Assembly: GCA_019358895.1 (NCBI GenBank)
Contig: JAHHIG010000015.1
Span: forward strand, 1-64,000
From: Tildeniella nuda ZEHNDER 1965/U140
Lineage (GTDB): Bacteria; Cyanobacteriota; Cyanobacteriia; Leptolyngbyales; Leptolyngbyaceae
Length of the DNA: 64,000 nt
Direction of reading: 5' to 3'
This document shows positions 1-9,385 of the stretch, in pieces. Position numbers and translations under genes: made by a program. The first letter of the stretch is position 1, and every line of letters begins with the position of its first letter. Under the pieces are notes generated by a model. It was not told the DNA's origin. It saw nothing but the letters and a program-made list of their open reading frames with translations, and searched no databases.

Positions 1-85
1 TTGAGGCAACGGGTATCGCGGCTAGTCCGCAAAACCTTATCCTTCTCAAAATCAGTAGCGAATCACATTGGTGCCATTTGGTACT

Positions 86-331
86 TCATCCATCACTACA
101 ATGCATCATTACTTGTGTAGCACTACCTAATTCATCAACTGCAAGTTGGTATGCAGGGGCTTTGACTAAACAATTGGCTAGCTCTGAGAACCTTGCATTA
201 ATCTCATCAAAATTGTCTGCATGTTCAAGATCTGCCTCACCATCCATCTGAAATGTGTTCAAAATGGCAGCCATCAGATCCGCTTGAAAATCTTCTGAGT
301 GGGCTACTGTGGATGCGTTAAGTGTTTCCAT
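86..331 (-). CDS. Small hypothetical protein
   Basis: An 81-residue acidic protein that I do not recognise. The start is supported by AGGAG about ten bases upstream of the ATG on the minus strand. It has no signal peptide, membrane segment or clear motif; Asp and Glu are concentrated in the first half and the last residues include Cys and His. It lies downstream of the TMEM175-like gene on the same strand with a 60-base gap, so the two could be cotranscribed. It is real-looking because of its ribosome binding site and gene-like composition, but nothing indicates a function. Confidence 0.55.
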   Translation of the reverse strand: METLNASTVAHSEDFQADLMAAILNTFQMDGEADLEHADNFDEINARFSELANCLVKAPAYQLAVDELGSATQVMMHCSDG

Positions 332-391: not shown

Positions 392-1048
392 CTAGCTAGG
401 TTGAGTCACCTTGTTTAACTCCTGTGGCATTGCTAATAATTTCCTCAGCGTGAAATACGCCAAGGGAAATAGCAGCCAAGCTAGATCTGACCAGGCAGGT
501 GCAAACATGGCAATTCCAATAGCTACCAACGCACAGATTGGCTCAATTAAGGCTTTAACCTTCATTGCTGCAATTGTCTGAGAGTCAAGATTTTCATCAA
601 CTAAGCGATGCTGATGCGTTGCATAGTTCCAGCTAACAAACGATAGAAAGCCAATCAACGCAATGTTGACTGCAAAACAGATTTTGGCAAAGGAATTGCC
701 TGAAAAGACCAGCGCCAATTCATTCGAGTACGGCACAAGAAACAAACACATCAGATACAGTGTGTAAATCCATAAATGTGCCTCATTCGTGCGTTTATAG
801 TAGGAAAACTGTTGGGTATGAGCGATCCAATACACTGCCACAAGCACAAATGTAATGAGATAAGCGCCCAAAGGCTTAAGTTGACCCACTAAAAACTGAT
901 TGATTTCTACCTTCGTTAGCACTTCGGCATTCTCTGGCAAGTCAAACCGCCAGAAGGTTAACGCCATTGCTAATGCAAAAATGAAATCACTCAACCGCGC
1001 CAAGTGTTTTAGGGCGTTTGAGGCTTGCGCGTCTTGATTCGTGTACAT
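392..1048 (-). CDS. TMEM175/DUF1211 family membrane protein
   Basis: A 218-residue integral membrane protein of the TMEM175 (DUF1211) family; characterised members are potassium-permeable channels. The family signature R-x3-F-x-D/F-x-F-A is visible near residues 18-30 (RLSDFIFALAMAL), where family members usually have FSDGVFAI. About five or six hydrophobic segments follow, which fits the length of one bacterial TMEM175 repeat. AGGGA precedes the ATG. The gene diverges from the TetR gene at 1232 across a 183-base region full of GGACGGT repeats, so it is a likely target of that regulator. Ion selectivity cannot be read from the sequence. Confidence 0.8.
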   Translation of the reverse strand: MYTNQDAQASNALKHLARLSDFIFALAMALTFWRFDLPENAEVLTKVEINQFLVGQLKPLGAYLITFVLVAVYWIAHTQQFSYYKRTNEAHLWIYTLYLMCLFLVPYSNELALVFSGNSFAKICFAVNIALIGFLSFVSWNYATHQHRLVDENLDSQTIAAMKVKALIEPICALVAIGIAMFAPAWSDLAWLLFPLAYFTLRKLLAMPQELNKVTQPS

Positions 1049-1087
1049 TTTCCCTGAATTGGCTTGAGCTTAACAATTCAATACTAC

Positions 1088-1175
1088 ACCATCCAGACGG
1101 TATAGTGTCAAGTAGAAAAGTGTACTGATTGGACGGTTTTTTATTTTAGCTGCTGGACGGTCTGGACGGTATAAT
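1088..1175. promoter_or_regulatory. Divergent promoter with four GGACGGT-type operator repeats
   Basis: Four copies of a C/T-GGACGGT-like motif occur at 1093-1101 (CCAGACGGT), 1129-1137, 1153-1161 and 1162-1170; the last two are adjacent at 9-bp spacing. The first lies in a near-palindrome, ACCATC-CA-GACGGT (1088-1101). The last runs straight into TATAAT at 1170-1175, a good -10 element for the TetR gene. Repeats between a TetR gene and a divergent gene usually act in autoregulation and target control. That role is inferred. Confidence 0.6.
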
Positions 1176-1231
1176 CAAAGAAATGATTCGCTTTGAATCA
1201 GGGGCGTTAGGCTAGAACCTTAAAGAAACTT

Positions 1232-1834
1232 ATGAAAACTGTCAAAACTGCTAAGGTTGCCGAAAAAGCCTCTAGCTCATCCGGTAAGAAACGTTCTGAA
1301 ACCCGCGATCGCCTGATTCAGTGCGCGATCGATATCTTAGTCAACCAAGGCAATGAGGCTCTGACGCTGGATGCAGTGGCTCAGGCAGCCGAAGTAAGTA
1401 AAGGTGGCTTGCTCTACCACTTCCCCAATAAAGAAGCTCTTATTACGGGAGTCATTCAGCATCTTATTGATGATTTTAATGCGGCAATTGAGTCTGAGCT
1501 GGCGAAGGAGAAGGGAGACGAGCCTGGAAAATGGCTACGCGCCTATGTCCGTGCAACATTTAACAGCAGCCAGCTTCCCCTTGCTCTTGGTTCGAGCTTA
1601 TTCGCAGCAGTTTCAATATCGCTCAATCAAGAAACCGTAAAACAGATCGATACCCAAATCAGCAAATGGCAACATAACCTATACAACTGTGGGCTTGACC
1701 CAACGCAAGCCAGTATCGTATACCTGGCAGCAGAGGGGTTGTGGGCAACGGAGATGTTTGAGATTGCCCCTAGTCAAACACTCCGTAAACAGATTCTTAA
1801 GAGATTGTTACGCATGACCCATGAAGTTCATTAA
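1232..1834 (+). CDS. TetR/AcrR family transcriptional regulator
   Basis: A 200-residue regulator. After a Lys/Ser-rich N-terminal extension, the TetR DNA-binding domain runs from about residue 24 to 70: an R-D-R-L-I-Q-C-A start, T-L-D-A-V-A-Q-A-A, then the recognition helix V-S-K-G-G-L-L-Y-H-F-P-N-K-E-A-L. The rest is an all-helical ligand-binding and dimerisation domain whose ligand is unknown. It lies between a GTTAGGC heptamer (1206-1212) and an attC-like site (1874-1958), so it may travel as a gene cassette. However, it has its own promoter and operators and a divergent partner, which is unusual for a cassette gene. Confidence 0.9.
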   Translation: MKTVKTAKVAEKASSSSGKKRSETRDRLIQCAIDILVNQGNEALTLDAVAQAAEVSKGGLLYHFPNKEALITGVIQHLIDDFNAAIESELAKEKGDEPGKWLRAYVRATFNSSQLPLALGSSLFAAVSISLNQETVKQIDTQISKWQHNLYNCGLDPTQASIVYLAAEGLWATEMFEIAPSQTLRKQILKRLLRMTHEVH

Positions 1835-1873
1835 AGCCCCCCGAAGCCGCTGAAACCCTTACGCAAAAACGCA

Positions 1874-1958
1874 GTATAACAAGTCGATGAAGCGGACGGC
1901 GGGAAATCTTGGCAGTGATGCTAAGGTTATCTGCCGCCGCTTATCTTAGTCGTTAGCT
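1874..1958 (+). other. attC-like integron recombination site 1
   Basis: An 85-bp imperfect inverted repeat bounded by GTATAAC on the left and GTTAGCT on the right. The left arm TAAC-N5-GATG-AAGCGGACGGC pairs with the reverse complement of the right arm (TAAC-N5-AGAT-AAGCGGCGGC), leaving one unpaired G and one unpaired A on the left arm. Sites 2, 3 and 4 show the same geometry. Extrahelical bases on one arm are the recognition hallmark of attC sites. The terminal heptamers are slightly off consensus. Confidence 0.7.
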
Positions 1959-2145
1959 GGTTTCGCAAACAGTCCTTCCACTCGTTCACAGAGGCATTCA
2001 CACAGTGGCAAAGCGCCGCGTCGTTGATGGGTTAAGATCGTCGTTTGAGAGGGTTTGTGGTGTGGTAAAGCACTGCGCAGTGGTTTGAGTTCGGTTAGTG
2101 GGGTGGTAAAGTTAAAATCAGCAAAGGTAGTCGGTGCGTCTCTCA
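1959..2145. other. Gene-less interval between two attC-like sites
   Basis: This 187-base stretch between sites 1 and 2 has no credible open frame on either strand. If both flanking sites are functional it would be a short cassette without a gene; such cassettes are known in chromosomal integrons. It could carry a promoter or a small RNA, but I see no strong hairpin or promoter. Confidence 0.45.
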
Positions 2146-2231
2146 GCTAACACCGCTGTTGCAACGGATTGTCGGGTTCTGTTTGTGGAGTAGCGAAGTC
2201 CACCTGCAACCGCTGAACAGTGACGTTATGC
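2146..2231 (+). other. attC-like integron recombination site 2
   Basis: An 86-bp imperfect inverted repeat from GCTAAC to GTTATGC. The left arm TAACACCGCTGTTGCAACGG pairs with the reverse-complemented right arm (TAACGTCACTGTTCAGCGG). Extra G and A bases stand on the left arm at the same positions as in sites 1, 3 and 4. A DUF6228 gene follows in the same orientation. Confidence 0.72.
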
Positions 2232-2368
2232 CGCGAGTTCTCGGTAGGGACAGCAACCACAAGGTGATCTGTTAGCATTCAGACTTTAGTAACCTTGAGC
2301 TTGTCAGTGAAGCAGCGTATTTAGTTATTGGCAGGGCGATCGTCGTTCGTTTTCGTATTTAGAATGCA

Positions 2369-2764
2369 ATGTCCAAAGTAACAATCAAGTCTGCAAATAC
2401 AGGGGCAAAGCTGGAATTTTCAGAAGTTGGAAATGAATACTGTACAGTCACGTTTTCAAGCGCGTCTCTGAGTGCGTCACATCGAGTTTGGTTTTACACC
2501 GGAGACTGTGAGCGGTTAGTTAGCTTGTTTATGGAGATGGCAGAAAACTGAACAGGTTGGGAAGGGACGAAAACCTGGGCTGCTATTGAGGCAGATTTTA
2601 GTCTCTCTTGCACTTCAGACAAATTAGGACACATTGCACTTGCAGTCGAGTTGGTAGGACGTGATGCTCCTGAGTTATGGTCTGCAAAGTTCAATGTAGA
2701 GATCGAAGCTGGACAACTTGAAAAAATAGCAAACGAAATGAAGTCATTGTTTAGCGGGTGTTAG
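2369..2764 (+). pseudogene. DUF6228-like cassette gene interrupted by an in-frame TGA
   Basis: Translation from ATG 2369 runs 60 codons to TGA at 2549-2551, then stays open in the same frame to TAG at 2762-2764, giving 131 residues in all. The downstream part reads TGWEGTKTWAAIEADF and later SDKLGHIALAVEL, matching my recollection of the DUF6228 pattern (W-x-G-x-K-x-W, then T-S-D-x-L-G-H-I) whose N-terminal half lies upstream of the stop. The TGA sits where a Trp (TGG) would fit, so a single base change explains it. The frame ends 18 bases before attC-like site 3, the usual place for a cassette gene. It could be a true nonsense mutation or a sequencing error; DUF6228 function is unknown. Confidence 0.75.
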
Positions 2765-2781
2765 ATTTGACGCATGCGGCA

Positions 2782-2866
2782 GCATAACCAGTCGGTTGCA
2801 GCGGACATCCGAAAGCCCTGATGCTAAGTTCAGGTTCCTTGCTGCCGCTGAACCGAGTCGTTATGC
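2782..2866 (+). other. attC-like integron recombination site 3
   Basis: An 85-bp inverted repeat from GCATAAC to GTTATGC, with the clearest arm pairing of the four sites. TAACCAGTCGGTTGCAGCGG pairs with the reverse-complemented right arm (TAACGACTCGGTTCAGCGG). A single G and then a single A on the left arm remain unpaired, as in attC sites. It closes the DUF6228 cassette. Confidence 0.78.
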
Positions 2867-2953
2867 CGACTTTTGACTTTTAAGGCTGGTATTGCTCAAG
2901 CCATTAGGGTCACAATGTTGGCAATAAGGAAAATCAAGGCAACTTCCACAAAA

Positions 2954-3295
2954 TCAATCTATTCCATCCGCGTTCATGCGTTTAAGGTGTTCCTGTCCCC
3001 AATCACACAGCGGCTTCAAAACAGGAATAATCGTTTTGCCATAGTCTGTGAAAGCATACTCAACTTTTGGAGGCATCTCAGCAAGCATATTGCGACTAAC
3101 AATGCCATCACTTTCTAGTTCGCGCAGTTGCTGGATCATCATTTTTTCAGTAATTTCAGGCATTAACCGCTTCAATTCGCTGTATCTTTTTGCCTTATCC
3201 CTCAGATGCCACAGGATTAGGAGCTTCCATTTACCACCCAGGACTTTCAACGTAGTTTGCACGAATGGTGTGCCATCAGGTTGTTCTGATTTCAT
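2954..3295 (-). CDS. HxlR family winged-helix transcriptional regulator
   Basis: A winged-helix regulator of the HxlR/YodB family, 113 residues from the ATG at 3293-3295; a GTG three codons upstream is an alternative start. The core LGGKWKLLILWHLRD, then RYSELKRLMPEITEKMM and the wing with VEYAFTDYG, is diagnostic. In redox-sensing HxlR proteins a Cys-Pro pair precedes this core; here the position reads Thr-Pro and I see no Cys in the protein, so thiol sensing by that residue is unlikely. It diverges from the ABM-domain operon at 3409, and two palindromes lie between them. It most likely represses that operon and itself. Confidence 0.88.
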   Translation of the reverse strand: MKSEQPDGTPFVQTTLKVLGGKWKLLILWHLRDKAKRYSELKRLMPEITEKMMIQQLRELESDGIVSRNMLAEMPPKVEYAFTDYGKTIIPVLKPLCDWGQEHLKRMNADGID

Positions 3296-3323
3296 AACAA
3301 TCACTCACTAGCGAATCCAGAAA

Positions 3324-3379
3324 TACTTACTTTTTAGTAAGTACTTTCCAAAAAGCTAGTAACAGTATACCTTGGTATA
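3324..3379. promoter_or_regulatory. Paired palindromic operators in the HxlR/ABM divergent promoter
   Basis: Two perfect inverted repeats lie 22 bases apart: TACTTACT-TTTT-AGTAAGTA (3324-3343) and TATACC-TT-GGTATA (3366-3379). The second lies about 30 bases before the ABM start and overlaps a likely -10 region; AGGAGG follows at 3398-3403, six bases before ATG 3409. Their position between a regulator and a divergent operon makes them the likely HxlR binding sites. That assignment is inferred. Confidence 0.6.
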
Positions 3380-3408
3380 GTTCAAATCTTTAGATTCAGG
3401 AGGCAATT

Positions 3409-3990
3409 ATGCGGTCTCCTGCTGGAGTCGTAGCGATTACTCGGCACGTTCAGCCGGGATCTGAGTCTGTATTTGAAGAGGCAGTGCGAGGTGTCATCTT
3501 TGTAGCTAGTACCTTTCCGGGCTATGCAGGAGGTGAAGTTTTATACCCCACAACGAAGCGTGGTGCATGGCAACTGATCTTGCGCTTCGACACTCTTGTT
3601 CATTTGCAAGAGTGGGAAAAATCTCCCATTTGTCAGGGCTGGATTGCGAGGGCAGATGCACTCACCATCGGTGATCCAAAAGTTTTGCGGGTCAATGGGT
3701 TAGAAGCATGGTTCGCGCTGCCGGAAGTGCCAAATGCATTCCCACCCCCTAAATGGAAAACCGCAATTGTTAGCGCGATCGGTATCTATCCAGTCATTTC
3801 TCTGATGCCGATTCTGCTGAAACCCATCACAAATGGACTCCCTGCGTGGTTAGCAACACTTGTAAGCATTGCCATTATGATGCCGTTGATGACTTGGGTC
3901 ATCATGCCTCAGGTAACGCGATTGTTTAAGCCTTGGCTTTATCCTCCTGAGGCAAAGCGTTCAGCCCATCAATCATCTAACCCAAATTAA
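3409..3990 (+). CDS. ABM-domain (antibiotic biosynthesis monooxygenase-like) membrane protein
   Basis: A 193-residue protein with an N-terminal ABM fold (about residues 5-95: V-A-I-T-R-H-V-Q-P-G, then FPGYAGGEVLYP and the RFDTLVHLQEWEKS strand-helix). It is followed by two hydrophobic segments near residues 115-165 and a basic tail. ABM proteins are dimeric ferredoxin-like-fold enzymes or binding proteins acting on quinones, polyketides or heme; the form with C-terminal membrane helices resembles COG3224. AGGAGG gives a strong translation start. First gene of a five-gene operon facing HxlR, so probably induced by an electrophile or small aromatic compound; the substrate is unknown. Confidence 0.8.
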   Translation: MRSPAGVVAITRHVQPGSESVFEEAVRGVIFVASTFPGYAGGEVLYPTTKRGAWQLILRFDTLVHLQEWEKSPICQGWIARADALTIGDPKVLRVNGLEAWFALPEVPNAFPPPKWKTAIVSAIGIYPVISLMPILLKPITNGLPAWLATLVSIAIMMPLMTWVIMPQVTRLFKPWLYPPEAKRSAHQSSNPN

Positions 3991-4002
3991 CGGAATAGAT
4001 TT

Positions 4003-4437
4003 ATGGATAACCTGCAACTAGAAAATGGATTCCCGGTCAATCCTATCCGAGTCGGCGATGGGATTGTTCTGATCAACATATTTACACTCGATCCTGAAAA
4101 AACTGAGCAGTTTGTGTCTACTCAAGTTGCCGAGTATAAGAGATTGAAAGGTCAATTTCCAGGCAGTTATACAGCTAATTTACACATTAGCCCCGATCGG
4201 ACACGAGCTGCGAACTACGCTAATTTTGCATCAGTAAAAGATTATGTTGCCATGCGGAATAGCCCTGAGTTTGCCGACCATTTAAAGCGTCTTCAGGGGC
4301 TTGTTGTTAAGGCAGACCCCCAACTCTATCAAGTGATGTACACGCAGAATCTAGACATGCCTACTTCTGAAGAGCCTTTACCCATGTTGCCCGATCCAGA
4401 ACTTGCACCAATACTTGCGCCGCCTGTACTTTCCTAG
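4003..4437 (+). CDS. ABM-domain protein, soluble
   Basis: A 144-residue second ABM-type protein, 12 bases after the first. The core V-L-I-N-I-F-T-L-D-P-E, then KGQFPGSYTANLH and the N-Y-A-N-F-A-S-V segment, is a single ABM domain with no membrane segment. A Pro/Leu-rich tail of about 30 residues follows. Two adjacent ABM proteins suggest an enzyme and a partner, or two substrates of one detoxification route. No catalytic residue can be assigned confidently. Confidence 0.75.
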   Translation: MDNLQLENGFPVNPIRVGDGIVLINIFTLDPEKTEQFVSTQVAEYKRLKGQFPGSYTANLHISPDRTRAANYANFASVKDYVAMRNSPEFADHLKRLQGLVVKADPQLYQVMYTQNLDMPTSEEPLPMLPDPELAPILAPPVLS

Positions 4438-4469
4438 CTTCTGAGGATGCACGATGGGCAACGGACAGA

Positions 4470-4526
4470 CCATTCACTTGAATGGTGGCATTTTGTGGGC
4501 TTTTGAATTAGTTAGGAGTACAGGAG
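4470..4526 (+). promoter_or_regulatory. Leader with palindrome upstream of the SnoaL-like gene
   Basis: Contains the palindrome CCATTCA-CT-TGAATGG (4470-4485), followed by a TTTTGTGGGC-TTTTGA element and a ribosome binding site GGAG. The same GTGGGC-A/T-TTTGA...TTAGGAG arrangement recurs before the SDR gene at about 4979-5010. It is either a duplicated leader or a shared internal promoter/operator; the role is inferred. Confidence 0.4.
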
Positions 4527-4534
4527 ATTAACCA

Positions 4535-4912
4535 ATGGACGAACGGATTGATATTTTGACAACGCTTTACATTGCAGAGCAAACATTTGATGCTGGGGAC
4601 CTGGAACAGAACATTCAGACCTGGAGCGATGAGGTGCTCATTGAAACACCCTTTGGTTCTGCGGATAGCCTGGAGTCCTACAAATCCTGGTTTAACGGGT
4701 TTTATGCTCAAACATCTGCTAATGGTGGAACACGCCATTATGTTCACAATCCTATTGTCCATGTGAATGGCGATCGCGCCGAAATCATTGCTTATCTCTA
4801 CATCATCAACGCCAGTACAGGCGGTTTTCTTGGCTCTGCAAGAATCCATGAAAAGTTGAAGAAAACAAGTGCTGGATGGAAGTTTACTTACCGTAGCGTA
4901 AAACCAGATTGA
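4535..4912 (+). CDS. SnoaL-like / NTF2-like fold protein
   Basis: A 125-residue single-domain protein of the NTF2-like superfamily, close to the SnoaL-like group. Visible features are the N-terminal helix with I-D-I-L-T-T-L-Y-I-A-E-Q, the TWSDEVLIETPFG strand, H-Y-V-H-N-P-I-V-H-V-N-G-D-R-A-E and the final K-T-S-A-G-W-K-F-T-Y-R strand. Members include polyketide cyclases, ketosteroid isomerase-like enzymes and many of unknown function. It sits between ABM proteins and an SDR, a set often seen in conversion of quinone- or polyketide-like compounds. CAGGAG precedes the ATG. Confidence 0.78.
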   Translation: MDERIDILTTLYIAEQTFDAGDLEQNIQTWSDEVLIETPFGSADSLESYKSWFNGFYAQTSANGGTRHYVHNPIVHVNGDRAEIIAYLYIINASTGGFLGSARIHEKLKKTSAGWKFTYRSVKPD

Positions 4913-4959
4913 GACTTATCCAAGCCCATCTCTTGAAAGCAAGCGCGTAACATTTACTA

Positions 4960-5010
4960 TGCTGACGGTATAATGGCAGCGTTTTGTGGGCATTTGATCG
5001 ATTAATTAGG
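4960..5010 (+). promoter_or_regulatory. Leader/promoter upstream of the SDR gene
   Basis: Holds GACGGTATAAT (4964-4974), the same GACGGT-plus-TATAAT arrangement as the TetR promoter at 1165-1175. A TTTTGTGGGC-ATTTGA stretch resembling the leader before 4535 follows, then TTAGGAG ahead of ATG 5018. An internal promoter is likely, and shared control with the TetR regulator is possible. Both are inferred from similarity only. Confidence 0.4.
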
Positions 5011-5017
5011 AGAAATT

Positions 5018-5764
5018 ATGGACGTTGCCAATTCAATTGCTCTTGTAACCGGAGCCAATGGGGGATTGGGTCAATATTTTGTTGAAGCGTTGCGATCGCA
5101 AGGTGTCACCAAAATTTATGCGGGTGCCCGCAACCCCAAAGCATTGGAATCACTAGTAGCAGACCATTCCGATATCGTTATTCCCATTGCCCTCGATATT
5201 ACAGACGAACAATCTGTCAATCAGGCAGCCGCTCAATGCCAAGACGTAACCCTGCTGATCAACAATGCCGGAGTTGGATTTAATCAGGGCTTGATCGCTG
5301 CGCCTAATTTGTCTCAAGCCCGTATGGAGATAGACGTTAACTACTTTGGAACCTTGATGATGTGTCGTGCTTTTGCACCCGTATTGAAGCACAATGGCGG
5401 TGGCGCAATTGTCAATATGGTATCAATGGTCGCGCGAGTCAATCTTCCCTTCAATGGCAGCTACAGCGCATCCAAAGCCGCAACCCTATCGCTAACTCAG
5501 GGCGTGCGCGCAGAGTTGGCAGCCCAAGGAACATTGGTGATTGCGGTCTTGCCTGCAACCATTGATATCGGCATGGGTAAATCCTATCCTGACCCGAAAG
5601 TGTCGCCGGAAGCAGTTGTTGGCGATGCTCTACAAGCTGTGATCGATAGTGTTGAGGACGTTTATCCTGGAGAACAGGCGAAACAAATGGCAGCGCAATT
5701 GCTTAGCGATCCTAAGGCACTTGAAAAAGCAGTGGCGACCATGTTACCCAGTTCAACTCAGTAG
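5018..5764 (+). CDS. Short-chain dehydrogenase/reductase (SDR)
   Basis: A 248-residue classical SDR, a soluble NAD(P)-dependent oxidoreductase. The cofactor-binding Gly-rich motif is VTGANGGLGQYF (about residues 10-21), NNAG is at about 86-89, the catalytic Ser is in MVSMV and the active-site pair is Y-S-A-S-K near residue 155. No Asp follows the second strand in the NADH-specifying position; the Ala-Arg-Asn there favours NADPH. The substrate is unknown. A 105-base gap with its own promoter-like element separates it from the previous gene; the next gene follows by 19 bases. Confidence 0.9.
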   Translation: MDVANSIALVTGANGGLGQYFVEALRSQGVTKIYAGARNPKALESLVADHSDIVIPIALDITDEQSVNQAAAQCQDVTLLINNAGVGFNQGLIAAPNLSQARMEIDVNYFGTLMMCRAFAPVLKHNGGGAIVNMVSMVARVNLPFNGSYSASKAATLSLTQGVRAELAAQGTLVIAVLPATIDIGMGKSYPDPKVSPEAVVGDALQAVIDSVEDVYPGEQAKQMAAQLLSDPKALEKAVATMLPSSTQ

Positions 5765-5783
5765 TCAGCAGTATAGGTTTTCA

Positions 5784-6431
5784 ATGAAAATTGCGATCGT
5801 CGGTTCAGGGAACATGGGTGGCGGTTTAGGCAGACTTTGGGCAAAAGCTGGGCATGAGGTTATTTTCTCCTATTCCAGAAACCCAGATAAGCTGCAACAG
5901 CTTGCAGTTTTAGCAGGCAACCAGGCGACCGTTGGCGATACGAAGGAAGCGCTAGCAAAAAGCCAGGTCGTTATGCTGGCGGTGGGAGTTTTGGCATTGG
6001 AAGAGGTGATGTCTGCGGTCGGTTATCTGGATGGCAAAATCGTGATCACTTGCGTCAGCGGATTACAACCGGACTTTACGGGGCAGACGATTGGACTGGC
6101 GACAAACTTAGAAGCTTCTATTGCTGAGAGGGTGCAACAGCTTGCGCCGAATGCAGCCGTTGTTGAGGCATTCAACATCACCTTTGCAGACATTATTGCT
6201 TCAGAATCAAGGGATTTTGAGGGCGATCGCCCCAGCATTTTCTATTGTGGCGATGATTCAGAGGCTAAGAAGACGGTTGCTCAACTCATCGAGGACTGTG
6301 AGTATGAAGCCATTGACGCGGGAATGTTAATTGTGGCTCGTTCTTTAGAAACCTTGGCAACTGCTTGGGTACAGTTTGCGGTTGCCAGTCAGTTATTTCC
6401 AAATCTTGGACTGAAAGCACTGCGGCGCTAA
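5784..6431 (+). CDS. NADPH-dependent F420 reductase-like protein (NAD-binding)
   Basis: A 215-residue protein of the F420-dependent NADP oxidoreductase family (Npd-like/COG2085). I took ATG 5784 because the family begins exactly at the M-K-I-A-I-V-G-S-G-N-M-G-G-G-L Rossmann motif; the frame is open further upstream but overlaps the SDR. Further family features are FSYSRNP, KSQVVMLAVG and E-A-F-N-I-T-F-A. Many members in organisms without F420 use NADPH with other substrates, so the cofactor is open. It is the last gene of the operon and ends only 6 bases before attC-like site 4. Confidence 0.85.
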   Translation: MKIAIVGSGNMGGGLGRLWAKAGHEVIFSYSRNPDKLQQLAVLAGNQATVGDTKEALAKSQVVMLAVGVLALEEVMSAVGYLDGKIVITCVSGLQPDFTGQTIGLATNLEASIAERVQQLAPNAAVVEAFNITFADIIASESRDFEGDRPSIFYCGDDSEAKKTVAQLIEDCEYEAIDAGMLIVARSLETLATAWVQFAVASQLFPNLGLKALRR

Positions 6432-6437
6432 ACCACG

Positions 6438-6525
6438 GCATAACAATCCCGTTGCACACCGACCGCGTCAAATTGGCTGGTGAATCCGAGAGTTTACTAG
6501 CGGCGGGTGAACGGGGTCGTTAGGC
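6438..6525 (+). other. attC-like integron recombination site 4
   Basis: An 88-bp inverted repeat with consensus ends GCATAAC and GTTAGGC. TAACAATCCCGTTGCACACC pairs with the reverse-complemented right arm (TAACGACCCCGTTCACCC), leaving unpaired G and A bases on the left arm. This is the closest match to classical attC ends in the window and directly follows the F420-type oxidoreductase gene in the same orientation. Confidence 0.78.
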
Positions 6526-6850
6526 TGCTCTAAGTTACCTGTGAGGGCACTGCCTACAGCCCTTGGTTTAATAGTCAGGGTTAGGCAAGTAGACTGAGGG
6601 AAGTTTGGAACTTTAATATCAGGGCAATCTCAAGGCGAACCTGATCATTTTGCTAATCATGCAACAAAGCCTATTGCTTGCGTTCTAGCATGGCTTCAAG
6701 CTGAATCTGGGTGATAGGGCTAATCCTGCAAAATCTGCATGAACTTGGCTGCAGCTTGCAATATTTGTTTACAAACACACTCTAAGAGCTGGTATCTATA
6801 CTGCTCCTCACGATTCATTTAGGATCGCTGTAGTGAAGCTAGTGATTGAC
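6526..6850. other. Gap after the last attC-like site, no supported gene
   Basis: 325 bases with no credible complete gene. A 38-codon stretch open in one plus-strand frame (about 6601-6715, reading roughly GQSQGEPDHFANHATKPIA) has no start and may be the decayed end of another cassette gene. A second GTTAGGC heptamer at 6580-6586 lacks a partner arm. Confidence 0.35.
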
Positions 6851-9385
6851 TTACCAACCCACAATGACTTTCCACAAAAGAGAGCCGATCGCTAACATTG
6901 ACAGATGTTGTGGCAGCAGTTTCACAAGCGACTGACGGGCAATTTTTTGGGTCAGAATAACGCTGAGCCAGAAGGAGAAAATCAAGGTAACGCTTTGTAA
7001 AAAGGCAATGACAGCAGGATCAGCAACGGCGATCGGTAAATTAGCTGTCCCTAAGCCAACGGTCGCAAAGCTGACGGGAATAACCTGTCCTGCTTCAGTG
7101 AGTCCTAGACGTAAGTAGTGTGCCAGACTTGCGCCTAAGACGAGGGGCAGGTAGCCATACGCTAGTTCCAAAAACGGGCGGGGTTTGTAGCTGCGCTGGA
7201 ATAGCCGGATGGTAGCATGAGCAAGAAGGGCGATCGTGCTGGGTAGCAGCAACGCCAATAGTGAAACGCCCGCATGAATGCCAAAATTGTTCAGGTGTAA
7301 TTGCCAACCAAACTGCGCCTCAATTTCAGGCAACCGATGCAGAAATACGCCTCCGAAAAGCAAGAAGAGCAGGCAAATTTCAGCGTAGGTCGGCGTGTGC
7401 GTTGTCCATAATTCAATGCCGGGTGGTCGCAGGTTTAGCTCAACCGATCGATGAGGACAGGCTTTGAGACAGGTCATGCAAAGCACACAATCGCGGTTAT
7501 CCTCAAGCTGAGCCGGGTGAGAATAGAGTGGACAACCGCCTGTTTCCAGACCTTCCCCTTTCTGAGGTCCGCCTTTGTAGCACTGATAGGTTGTACACGT
7601 AGCGGAACAAATGCCCTGCTGTGCCCGGAGTTCGACCATCGACAGTTTAGCAAACAGCCCATTCATGCCGCCGATCGGGCAGAGGTAACGGCACCAAAAG
7701 CGACGTTCAAACAACAGCGAGAAGATGACTGCACCTGCCGTGATCAGCAGCAGCAAGCAACCGGATAGATAAGCGGTGTCCTCTAAGTTCCAAAGTTCTT
7801 CCCACAGCAAAATCAAGGTAAACATGCCGAACAAAAACCATCCGCCCCATTTTTCGGCTTGCTGTCGGGGCCAGGGCAGCAGTTGTCGGGGATAGAGCCA
7901 GAGCGAGATTTTCTGGGCTAACTCGCCATAGATCATGAACGGGCAAACCGAGCACCAGAGCCGTCCAATGAATGGGAATGCCAGGAGAATCAGAGTCCAC
8001 CACCATGCCCAAAATAGATTGAGCGCGATGTTGTCATGACGGCTCTGCGGTCCCAACATCAGTACGGCGACGACGACGGCAAAAAAGCCGAGCGTGAAGC
8101 CATAGTTGATGCGATCGGGATACCAGGGACTCCGCAAAAACTGGCGTAATTGGGGTGAAGAATTGAGTAAATTGACGCGAAACCGCCTGGTTTTCACACT
8201 CACTGACCAAAATACTTCTTCAGTGAGTTCTGAGGCACCATCCGATTGCAGTACTGCCCGCTCTACCAGATTTTCTAGCTCAGTTAAATTACCAGGAAAG
8301 TCGTAGCCCTGAAGCCGACGCAGTGCCTCTGGCGTTACCTTGGGTTTAGCCAGCCCTCTAGCGCGACAAAACAAGCTTAGATAATACTCTACCTGCGATA
8401 AAGTATCGGCTTTTCGTACTCGTAACGGCGGGACTCGGATAATATGCCCCACTAGCCCTTTTCGCTCTAGTGCTGGCAGAACCTTTTCGGATGTCATTAC
8501 GATACGTGCCTGACATTGGCGGGACGGTGCAGACGGTTCACCCTCGCGTTTAACGAGGTCATACTCTCCGGTTTCCAGGAGCCGTACCAGTTTGTTCTGT
8601 AAGTCCGGTGTCAACTCCTGAACATTGTTGAGCAGCAAGGTGCCCTCACCCAGCCAGTCAATTAGTCCCGGTTTACCACCCACACGCCCAAACAGCTCTG
8701 AACCGCTGGTTTGTAGGGTATCGCAGTCAATTTTAAGCATCGGCTCATGGCGGTAGCGAGAGCCAAAATGAATCAGCGCAGTCGCATTATCTTTACCTAA
8801 TCCCGGTTCGCCGAAGACCAGCACCGATCGCCGATCGTCTGCTGCCTTTTTAATTTCCTGACGTAGCCGTGTTGCATAGCGGCTAGAACCCACAATCCCT
8901 CGTCGTACTTTAGGCACTAGATAGGGACGTAGTGCCGTCTGTCGCTCGCGTTCATAGATCAGTTGGGCTGAAACCTGATCCAATTCGCTGGCTAACTGGC
9001 GCGATAGTGTCTGGGTAATTTCGGGATGCCGCTGCACGATCGCCAAAAAGTCAGCTTTGGGAATCGACCAGAGCACACCATCACTCAGGGTAATGACTGT
9101 TGCTTCAACGGGCTGGTCTAACGCCAATTCTTTGAGATGCAGAATGGTTCCTGGCAAAAGGCTCACTGCATTAGCAAGACCTGTTGCGCTGCTGCGGTAG
9201 CTTTCCAGTCGCCCTGCTTTAAGAATATAGAGTGCCTCGGGGGAGGTATCCTCCAGAACAAGCCGACGATTTTCCTGTACCGATTCTTCCTGAATAGCGG
9301 CTGCGATCGCCGCTAAAGCTTGCTCTGAAAGGGCATTTAGACTGGTATTTTCACGTAGCCAGGCAACTTTTTCTGTCTGTTCCAT
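6851..9385 (-). CDS. cNMP-binding/AAA+ (sigma-54-activator-like)/polyferredoxin membrane fusion protein
   Basis: An 844-residue three-part protein. Residues about 20-140 form a CRP-like cyclic-nucleotide-binding domain without a DNA-binding helix. Residues about 165-385 resemble the AAA+ domain of sigma-54 activators: Walker A GEPGLGKD at 192-199, VPPLRVRKAD at 318-327, FPGNLTELENLVERA at 363-377. The GAFTGA sigma-54-contact loop is missing and the Walker B segment reads LLLNNVQE instead of LFLDE. There is no C-terminal helix-turn-helix. From about 425 on it is a NapH/NosR-like membrane ferredoxin: CSVCP (478-482), CRYLCP (565-570), Cys593/597/602, and a 4Fe-4S motif CVLCMTCLKACP (633-644), with several membrane helices. 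Probably a membrane redox protein with a regulatory nucleotide-binding half; function unknown. Confidence 0.8.
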   Translation of the reverse strand: MEQTEKVAWLRENTSLNALSEQALAAIAAAIQEESVQENRRLVLEDTSPEALYILKAGRLESYRSSATGLANAVSLLPGTILHLKELALDQPVEATVITLSDGVLWSIPKADFLAIVQRHPEITQTLSRQLASELDQVSAQLIYERERQTALRPYLVPKVRRGIVGSSRYATRLRQEIKKAADDRRSVLVFGEPGLGKDNATALIHFGSRYRHEPMLKIDCDTLQTSGSELFGRVGGKPGLIDWLGEGTLLLNNVQELTPDLQNKLVRLLETGEYDLVKREGEPSAPSRQCQARIVMTSEKVLPALERKGLVGHIIRVPPLRVRKADTLSQVEYYLSLFCRARGLAKPKVTPEALRRLQGYDFPGNLTELENLVERAVLQSDGASELTEEVFWSVSVKTRRFRVNLLNSSPQLRQFLRSPWYPDRINYGFTLGFFAVVVAVLMLGPQSRHDNIALNLFWAWWWTLILLAFPFIGRLWCSVCPFMIYGELAQKISLWLYPRQLLPWPRQQAEKWGGWFLFGMFTLILLWEELWNLEDTAYLSGCLLLLITAGAVIFSLLFERRFWCRYLCPIGGMNGLFAKLSMVELRAQQGICSATCTTYQCYKGGPQKGEGLETGGCPLYSHPAQLEDNRDCVLCMTCLKACPHRSVELNLRPPGIELWTTHTPTYAEICLLFLLFGGVFLHRLPEIEAQFGWQLHLNNFGIHAGVSLLALLLPSTIALLAHATIRLFQRSYKPRPFLELAYGYLPLVLGASLAHYLRLGLTEAGQVIPVSFATVGLGTANLPIAVADPAVIAFLQSVTLIFSFWLSVILTQKIARQSLVKLLPQHLSMLAIGSLLWKVIVGW

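Follow-up and report, generated by a model that had tools for sequence, protein, structure and literature searches.

In Tildeniella nuda ZEHNDER 1965/U140, the initial 64 kb of contig C31 (the window, by which the whole of that stretch is meant) carry four hairpins between 1874 and 6525 that a first-pass annotation, made without database searches, had read as parallel integron attC sites of 85 to 88 bp in an array without a visible integrase. The genome comprises 6.08 Mb in 38 contigs and is numbered G000; other genomes are likewise given G numbers, contigs C numbers and loci L numbers. A covariance model (R1) was made for this analysis from 26 attC sites of relatives, none of them from G000, and it recovers all four hairpins on the + strand, with lengths of 85, 87, 85 and 88 bp (site 2 begins at 2145 in the R1 match):

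1874..1958, + strand: attC site 1 (R1 69.5 bits; 88% identity across 81 bp with a G001 site that lies in an intI-linked locus)
2145..2231, + strand: attC site 2 (R1 63.7 bits; ~80% identity to repeated attC sites of G019)
2782..2866, + strand: attC site 3 (R1 64.1 bits)
6438..6525, + strand: attC site 4 (R1 64.1 bits; 89% identity over 91 bp to a G027 site ~2.6 kb from intI)

With filters off, R1 separates these sites from the rest of the window: the next-best matches are the same sites reversed (site 3 at 22.8, site 4 at 16.1 and site 1 at 10.3 bits), and the best match outside the four in all 64 kb reaches 11.8 bits. The sites carry R''/R' boxes (RYYYAAC/GTTRRRY-like) with paired L'' and L' arms, and extrahelical bases occur at fixed positions on one arm, both in the window (as read from the R1 match) and in the sites of relatives. 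The unpaired G and unpaired A described earlier at matching positions are invariant across the training alignment and unpaired in the counted structure. Sites 3 and 4 form the whole hairpin as lone bottom-strand DNA (z of −4.3 and −2.1 against shuffles), and sites 1, 2 and 4 are 80 to 89% identical to sites of several relatives. Genes on the same strand end 39, 18 and 6 bp before sites 1, 3 and 4, so the two short distances first noted (between 2763 and 2782 and between 6431 and 6438) hold, with the qualification that the gene before site 3 is interrupted by an in-frame stop.

The training sites of R1 were obtained by a hairpin scan of relatives' loci adjoining integron integrases. Thirty nonredundant candidates were reduced to 26 by dropping three of odd length (98 to 99 bp) and one strand-opposed to the outward direction. 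In the resulting alignment, 90.5% of cells pair in the counted structure, compared to 26 to 42% when the partner is slid, and 114 cells are altered on both sides, compared to 37 in shuffles. Scanner matches in relatives are oriented outward from intI in 55 of 59 cases.

If cassettes are circles joined at G|TTRRRY, the R' box of each site should mirror the R'' of the site that follows. This closure, a mark of inserted circular cassettes, is exact in the window, where the R' box is the reverse complement of the following site's R'' in all three pairs, and it occurs in 59 of 72 adjacent same-strand pairs in relatives. Together, these give 62 of 75 pairs, a count that takes in all 92 site matches (shuffle mean, 14.7; maximum, 28). 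When two G019 loci with tandem near-identical cassettes are left out, 39 of 51 pairs close, the window included (shuffle mean, 6.7; maximum, 14). The two loci, L052 and L062, are intI-linked runs of near-identical attC-bounded units spaced 306 to 308 bp apart in a single-contig genome. Because an independent model, the R'/R'' closure and similar sites in the integrase-linked loci of relatives agree, the earlier reading of the four hairpins as integron attC sites is supported.

The crossover points predicted by these boxes divide the stretch between the sites as follows:

1953..2225, + strand: cassette 2 (site 1 R' GTTAGCT is the reverse complement of site 2 R''), with no open reading frame (ORF) of at least 60 amino acids (aa)
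2226..2860, + strand: cassette 3 (site 2 R' GTTATGC is the reverse complement of site 3 R'')
2369..2763, + strand: gene of cassette 3, with one in-frame stop at 2549-2551; the G005 homologue is uninterrupted
2861..6519, + strand: cassette 4, multigene, with six genes in 3.7 kb (site 3 R' GTTATGC is the reverse complement of site 4 R'')
2954..3304, − strand: HxlR-family regulator (PF01638)
3409..3990, + strand: antibiotic-biosynthesis-monooxygenase-like protein (PF03992)
4003..4437, + strand: 144-aa protein, no Pfam family above the cut-off
4535..4912, + strand: SnoaL-like protein (PF13577); in G002 its own attC follows the gene
5018..5764, + strand: short-chain dehydrogenase/reductase (SDR) oxidoreductase (PF00106); 17 relatives found, 16 of them cyanobacterial
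5784..6431, + strand: F420-dependent NADP oxidoreductase-like protein (PF03807)

Cassette 3 has a counterpart in G005, where contig C86 holds a cassette 89% identical to 2368-2865; its attC (42.5 bits) is alone in the 9 kb read. Positions 2834 to 6447 are 88 to 90% identical to a stretch of Stenomitos frigidus that holds ~0.25 kb extra inside and has an attC at both ends. Cassette 4 may have been built from former single cassettes. Direct repeats (4481-4506 and 4972-4997, 85% alike) bracket the SnoaL-like gene, an apparent R'' remnant, GGTATAA, closes the unit, and locus L183 matches both flanks of this gene and not the gene itself. At the other end of cassette 4, comparison of 6405-6560 with L182, L184, L185 and L199 finds one oxidoreductase gene end followed by attC sites that differ by genome, with homology ending at R'' plus a few bases. 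The attC behind this gene is of one type in G000 and of another in S. frigidus and CSU_1_3, and is apparently truncated in CCP2 and G002; the pattern may have arisen because attC sites were exchanged or lost, the break falling at R''.

The array is flanked by the following features:

1..127, + strand: C-terminal end of an IS1 transposase (Pfam PF03400, 24.4 bits against a cut-off of 24.1); the contig begins inside this multicopy element
86..331, − strand: 81-aa ORF, no family match
392..1048, − strand: TMEM175-type channel gene, divergent from tetR (PF06736)
1232..1834, + strand: TetR-family regulator, the last gene before attC site 1, ending 39 bp before it (PF00440/PF17937)
6520..6616, + strand: stump of a fifth cassette, leader only (6518-6616 are 83% identical to a G019 leader directly after an attC)
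6851..9385, − strand: conserved chromosomal flank gene, 844 aa, found in 43 of 56 genomes at an E value of ≤1e-100

The array is decayed. The contig starts in the IS1 transposase, whose bases 1 to 127 match many places in relatives, several of them at contig ends; cassette 3 carries its in-frame stop; and behind site 4 only the stump of a cassette is left. In G019 the gene begins 5 bp beyond the matching leader, and in the window that gene is missing. Left of site 1, the tetR-TMEM175 stretch (128-1830) is 81% identical to a stretch of G053 (contig C6) in which R1 finds no attC over 7.5 kb. Positions 1203 to 1212 (GGCGTTAGGC) were considered as the left boundary of a tetR cassette and rejected, as site 1 predicts GTTATAC. 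Similar motifs containing GACGGTATA lie before tetR (1088-1110) and before the SDR gene (4956-4978); they are 78% alike and are possibly operators. For the 844-aa gene, the best 25 of 26 NCBIfam matches all lie below the cut-off, and in eight relatives none of the window genes left of 6849 was found within 3 to 20 kb beside it. Because the neighborhood of this gene is mostly unshared among relatives, no empty site can be defined for the window array.

The locus is very probably the remnant of an integron cassette array with partly broken cassettes. Under the proposed mechanism, IntI would insert circular cassettes at G|TTRRRY crossovers, each cassette spanning TTNNNN to the G of the R' of its attC. 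The four sites would then bound an ORF-less cassette, a single-gene cassette that is now interrupted and the 3.7-kb multigene cassette. The tetR-TMEM175 stretch precedes site 1, a fifth, truncated cassette follows site 4, and IS1 cuts the left side. Several observations weigh against this interpretation. The R boxes have non-pairs in the R1 match (two in site 1, three in site 2 and one in site 4); the bottom strand of site 2 folds, although no more stably than its own shuffles (z of 0.13); and site 1 alone gives an inner stem without R-box pairing (z of −2.7). The short R' pattern by itself is at chance level in the window (13 matches against 10.65 expected), the window has no Rfam match at gathering scores, and the left boundary of the first cassette, expected to be GTTATAC, is absent between base 1 of the window and site 1. 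Finally, contig C31 and contig C36, which encodes an integrase, lack an exact end overlap of 10 to 200 bases. Rfam at relaxed E values on 1000-7000 also gave no attC family.

The absence of an integrase, as first described, holds for the window (no IntI-like sequence by tblastn with the own-genome IntI at E values of up to 0.01) and not for the genome. The genome-wide search that had been proposed for intI and further attC sites found both: about thirty attC sites beyond those in the window and, on C36, a gene for a full-length IntI of 365 aa (TIGR02249, 462.7 bits against a cut-off of 265). Residues 53 to 364 of this protein align with the solved integron integrase 2a3v (E value of 6e-90), and its conserved stretches hold the R, HxxR, H and Y that we take to be the tyrosine-recombinase residues. 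C36 is ordered as IntI, attI junction, the gene of a first cassette (350 aa), attC (74.2 bits) and, truncated where the contig stops, a second cassette. The junction, GTTAGCC, and the R'' of the first attC are reverse complements, so the first C36 cassette also fits the closure rule. Among the 58 genomes searched, the own genome included, 31 have TIGR02249 above the cut-off.

The integrase of the window array could be supplied in trans from C36, and the C36 IntI may be active and may have made, or may still move, the array. Alternatively, the window array could be the far end of the C36 integron across an assembly gap, in which case it would belong to a complete integron and not to a CALIN (cluster of attC sites lacking integrase). 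The C36 sequence breaks off within its second cassette, 1.8 kb beyond intI, C31 starts 1.9 kb before its first attC, and both read in the same direction. Yet C31 begins in an IS1 element rather than in a cassette, its end shares no overlap with that of C36, and the R'' of site 1 (GTATAAC) does not fit the open C36 cassette (GTTATGC), whereas that of an attC at the end of contig C7 (GCATAAC) does. We consider such a join unlikely. The C7 site (L202) lies 60 bp from the right end of its contig, with its gene off the contig, and is itself a possible partner in a contig join; the fit between C7 and C36 is weak because GCATAAC is common. The four window sites lie close together, with gaps of ≤3.6 kb. 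Because C36 has a full-length IntI and C31 starts inside IS1, the array can be called no more than a possible CALIN.

Sites resembling those of the window are scattered over the genome. R1 matches at least 42 places in G000 at an E value of ≤1 (150 of 1649 first-look candidates were scored). The 34 stronger sites (E value of ≤2.2e-4), which include the four of the window and one on C36, fall into 28 clusters by a 4-kb rule, and 25 of these are single sites. Single sites number 24 of 33 in G030, which is one contig, and 15 of 48 and 20 of 50 in the fragmented genomes G002 and G006. Altogether, attC-like sites (R1, E value of ≤1e-4) occur in 52 of 56 genomes searched, among them genomes without an integrase match above the cut-off (48 sites in G002, 50 in G006, 70 in G053 and 22 in G026).

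It had been held that the same inverted repeats, found genome-wide without adjoining cassette-like genes, would speak against attC sites. They are indeed genome-wide, but many of them adjoin genes. Their context was examined for 34 G000 sites that score 26.7 bits or more and belong neither to the window nor to the C36 integron (four matches below 26 bits were not used). Twenty of the 34 directly follow a same-strand ORF (−12 to 60 bp), compared to 21.5% of random intergenic windows; one has an opposite-strand ORF starting at that place, and eight have an opposite-strand ORF ending just after R'. By a crude ORF caller, 22 of the 34 are intergenic, against 10% of random windows. The placement behind ORFs repeats in G030 (15 of 23 single sites, one partial match being set aside; null, 0.24) and in G006 (10 of the 16 examined among 20 single sites; null, 0.25). 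A Pfam scan of 20 proteins, from 19 of the 21 ORFs before lone sites plus the C36 cassette gene, found acetyltransferases, toxin-antitoxin parts, OsmC, a SpoU methylase, a PF00144 beta-lactamase-family protein, TMEM175 and oxidoreductases; eight of the 20 had no Pfam match. PADLOC gave no defense family among ten cassette proteins from elsewhere in the genome.

A genome-wide distribution would also be expected if the hairpins were another palindromic repeat that resembles attC, such as a miniature inverted-repeat transposable element (MITE) or an IS200/IS605-type end, and some lone sites of G030 and G000 share repeated DNA directly to their right. Such shared flanks exist at few sites only, ORF placement speaks against a repeat, and the closure rule and the orientation from intI led us to reject this origin, which we regard as extremely improbable. 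The shared DNA in G030 begins at the R' box (64 to 99 bp at L213, L214 and L222; 271 bp at L220 and L226) and is possibly the end of a transposable element.

How the lone cassettes arose is less clear. IntI may have inserted them one by one at attI-like or attG-type chromosomal sites (attG insertion being that at chromosomal places other than attI), a reading to which we give a nearly even chance. A left boundary matching the site's own cassette lies within 1.5 kb upstream of 20 of 39 G000 sites (four in the window or at C36 and 16 elsewhere), which exceeds the controls (a mean of 3.3 and a maximum of 10 of 39 with the motifs of other sites, and 4 with the own motif sought downstream). The boundary matched for window site 4 falls inside a gene by chance. 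This enrichment was not replicated in G030 (4 of 23; control mean, 1.8; own motif downstream, 4) or G006 (1 of 16; control, 1.4), and insertion is therefore not put foremost.

Comparison with relatives nevertheless provides candidate empty sites. Five lone-cassette loci were searched for in six same-genus genomes, and inserts are absent between found flanks at four of them. (i) The L112 insert is absent in all six relatives, with flanks 29 to 36 bp apart in five and 188 bp apart in G005, compared to 1.4 kb in G000. (ii) The L117 insert is absent in five relatives (0 to 228 bp between flanks). (iii) The L105 flanks are ~0.1 kb (G002) and ~0.3 kb (G004) apart, against 0.9 kb in G000. (iv) At L119, the predicted crossover follows query base 1350; homology to G005 ends at 1352 and returns at 2795, beyond the attC, which ends at 2653. 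No flank pair was found for L121 in the six genomes. On the right, the edges cannot be placed to the base, because the intergenic DNA has diverged. The L119 insert starts at the crossover (CAATAG|TT) directly behind the stop codon of a gene that G005 has without the insert, and L119 looks like a cassette inserted alone.

The R' box is less conserved at lone sites than in arrays, as expected if the target supplies R': it fits GTTRNNY at 10 of 20 lone sites in G000, 14 of 23 in G030 and 7 of 16 in G006, compared to 40 of 46 sites in arrays, and the counts are the same when the box may shift by up to 2 bases. R'' is conserved at 18 of 23 lone sites in G030 and 8 of 16 in G006; since it is as weak as R' in G006, some of the R' effect in G030 and G006 could reflect general decay.

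Another explanation is that several dead integrons, having lost intI and most of their cassettes, left the scattered lone sites as relics. It was weighed with an attI-core matrix built from 11 of 15 arrays (three without a boundary and one with two candidates were dropped), which is partly circular in that, in four arrays with two candidates, the one resembling the rest was chosen. By this matrix, lone junctions score 17.7 (L123), 17.5 (L111), 12.7 and 9.2 (L110) and 9.7 (L119), whereas 1 of 77 downstream control stretches reaches 9. The L119 score is in line with single insertion; relics are favored by L123 and the two outer L110 cassettes, whose junctions hold attI cores, and by L106, which has one at a near-boundary. 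To the left of the L111 cassette (C36:38090), 177 bp are 77% identical to the C36 attI region and end a few bases from the junction. L123 has an intI fragment 0.1 kb past its junction, L104 has one at a distance of 3.5 kb from its site, and relatives contain many short intI matches. The attI copy at L111 and the intI fragments near L123 and L104 indicate that part of the scatter consists of relic integrons. As a general account, however, relics face the scarcity of attI cores: one of at least 9 bits lies within 1.6 kb upstream of 9 of 34 sites in G000, none of 23 in G030 and 2 of 16 in G006, so that 25, 23 and 14 sites, respectively, have none. The L119 insert, which begins at a crossover behind a stop codon where G005 has the gene insert-free, also argues against it. 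We find this origin plausible, though short of an even chance.

More tentatively, the integron of this lineage may act as a genome-wide scatterer, its IntI putting single cassettes at points resembling the attI core (...AATAG|TT), often right behind genes. If so, most cassettes would live outside arrays and could persist after the loss of intI.

With respect to known systems, Cyanobacteria are named as carriers of intI in the consulted portion of PMC2426708, and a cyanobacterial attC model is published according to that of PMC8352920. The case for novelty made earlier, that attC clusters are mostly described from Proteobacteria, is weak in view of these two sources, and the array is ordinary in kind because integrons are already known from cyanobacteria. 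As far as the excerpts describe them, cyanobacterial chromosomal integrons resemble the T. nuda system in IntI family, attC architecture and cassette order and orientation. The window array differs in being integrase-free within its contig and decayed, and most detected G000 sites lie outside the intI-linked array.

CALINs are defined in the excerpts of PMC12444791 and PMC9024848; the likeness extends to two or more attC sites, the lack of a visible integrase beside them and an integrase elsewhere in the genome, as these partial texts describe for some Xanthomonas. The window contig differs in ending in IS1, so that only its right side is visible. The SALIN (single attC lacking integrase) is named in the part of PMC12690207 consulted, and single sites can be true according to that of PMC9024848. 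The 25 single sites among the stronger ones of G000 are comparable, but here singles are more numerous than sites in arrays, and some of them show a cassette boundary or have an empty counterpart in relatives.

Insertion at attG sites, known to us through passages in the citing papers PMC12444791 and PMC12901181, likewise places cassettes at chromosomal positions other than attI. That work was done in the laboratory, whereas natural genomes are concerned here, and several junctions resemble the attI core of the lineage. Within the excerpts searched, a scope that left out the original attG study, no description of genome-wide lone cassettes in Cyanobacteria was found. Natural genomes rich in lone cassettes, together with sequenced relatives, allow a direct test of whether insertion outside attI shapes chromosomes. 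The array is a further cyanobacterial case of a known system; the scatter of sites over the genome around it is the unusual part and the one of greater consequence.

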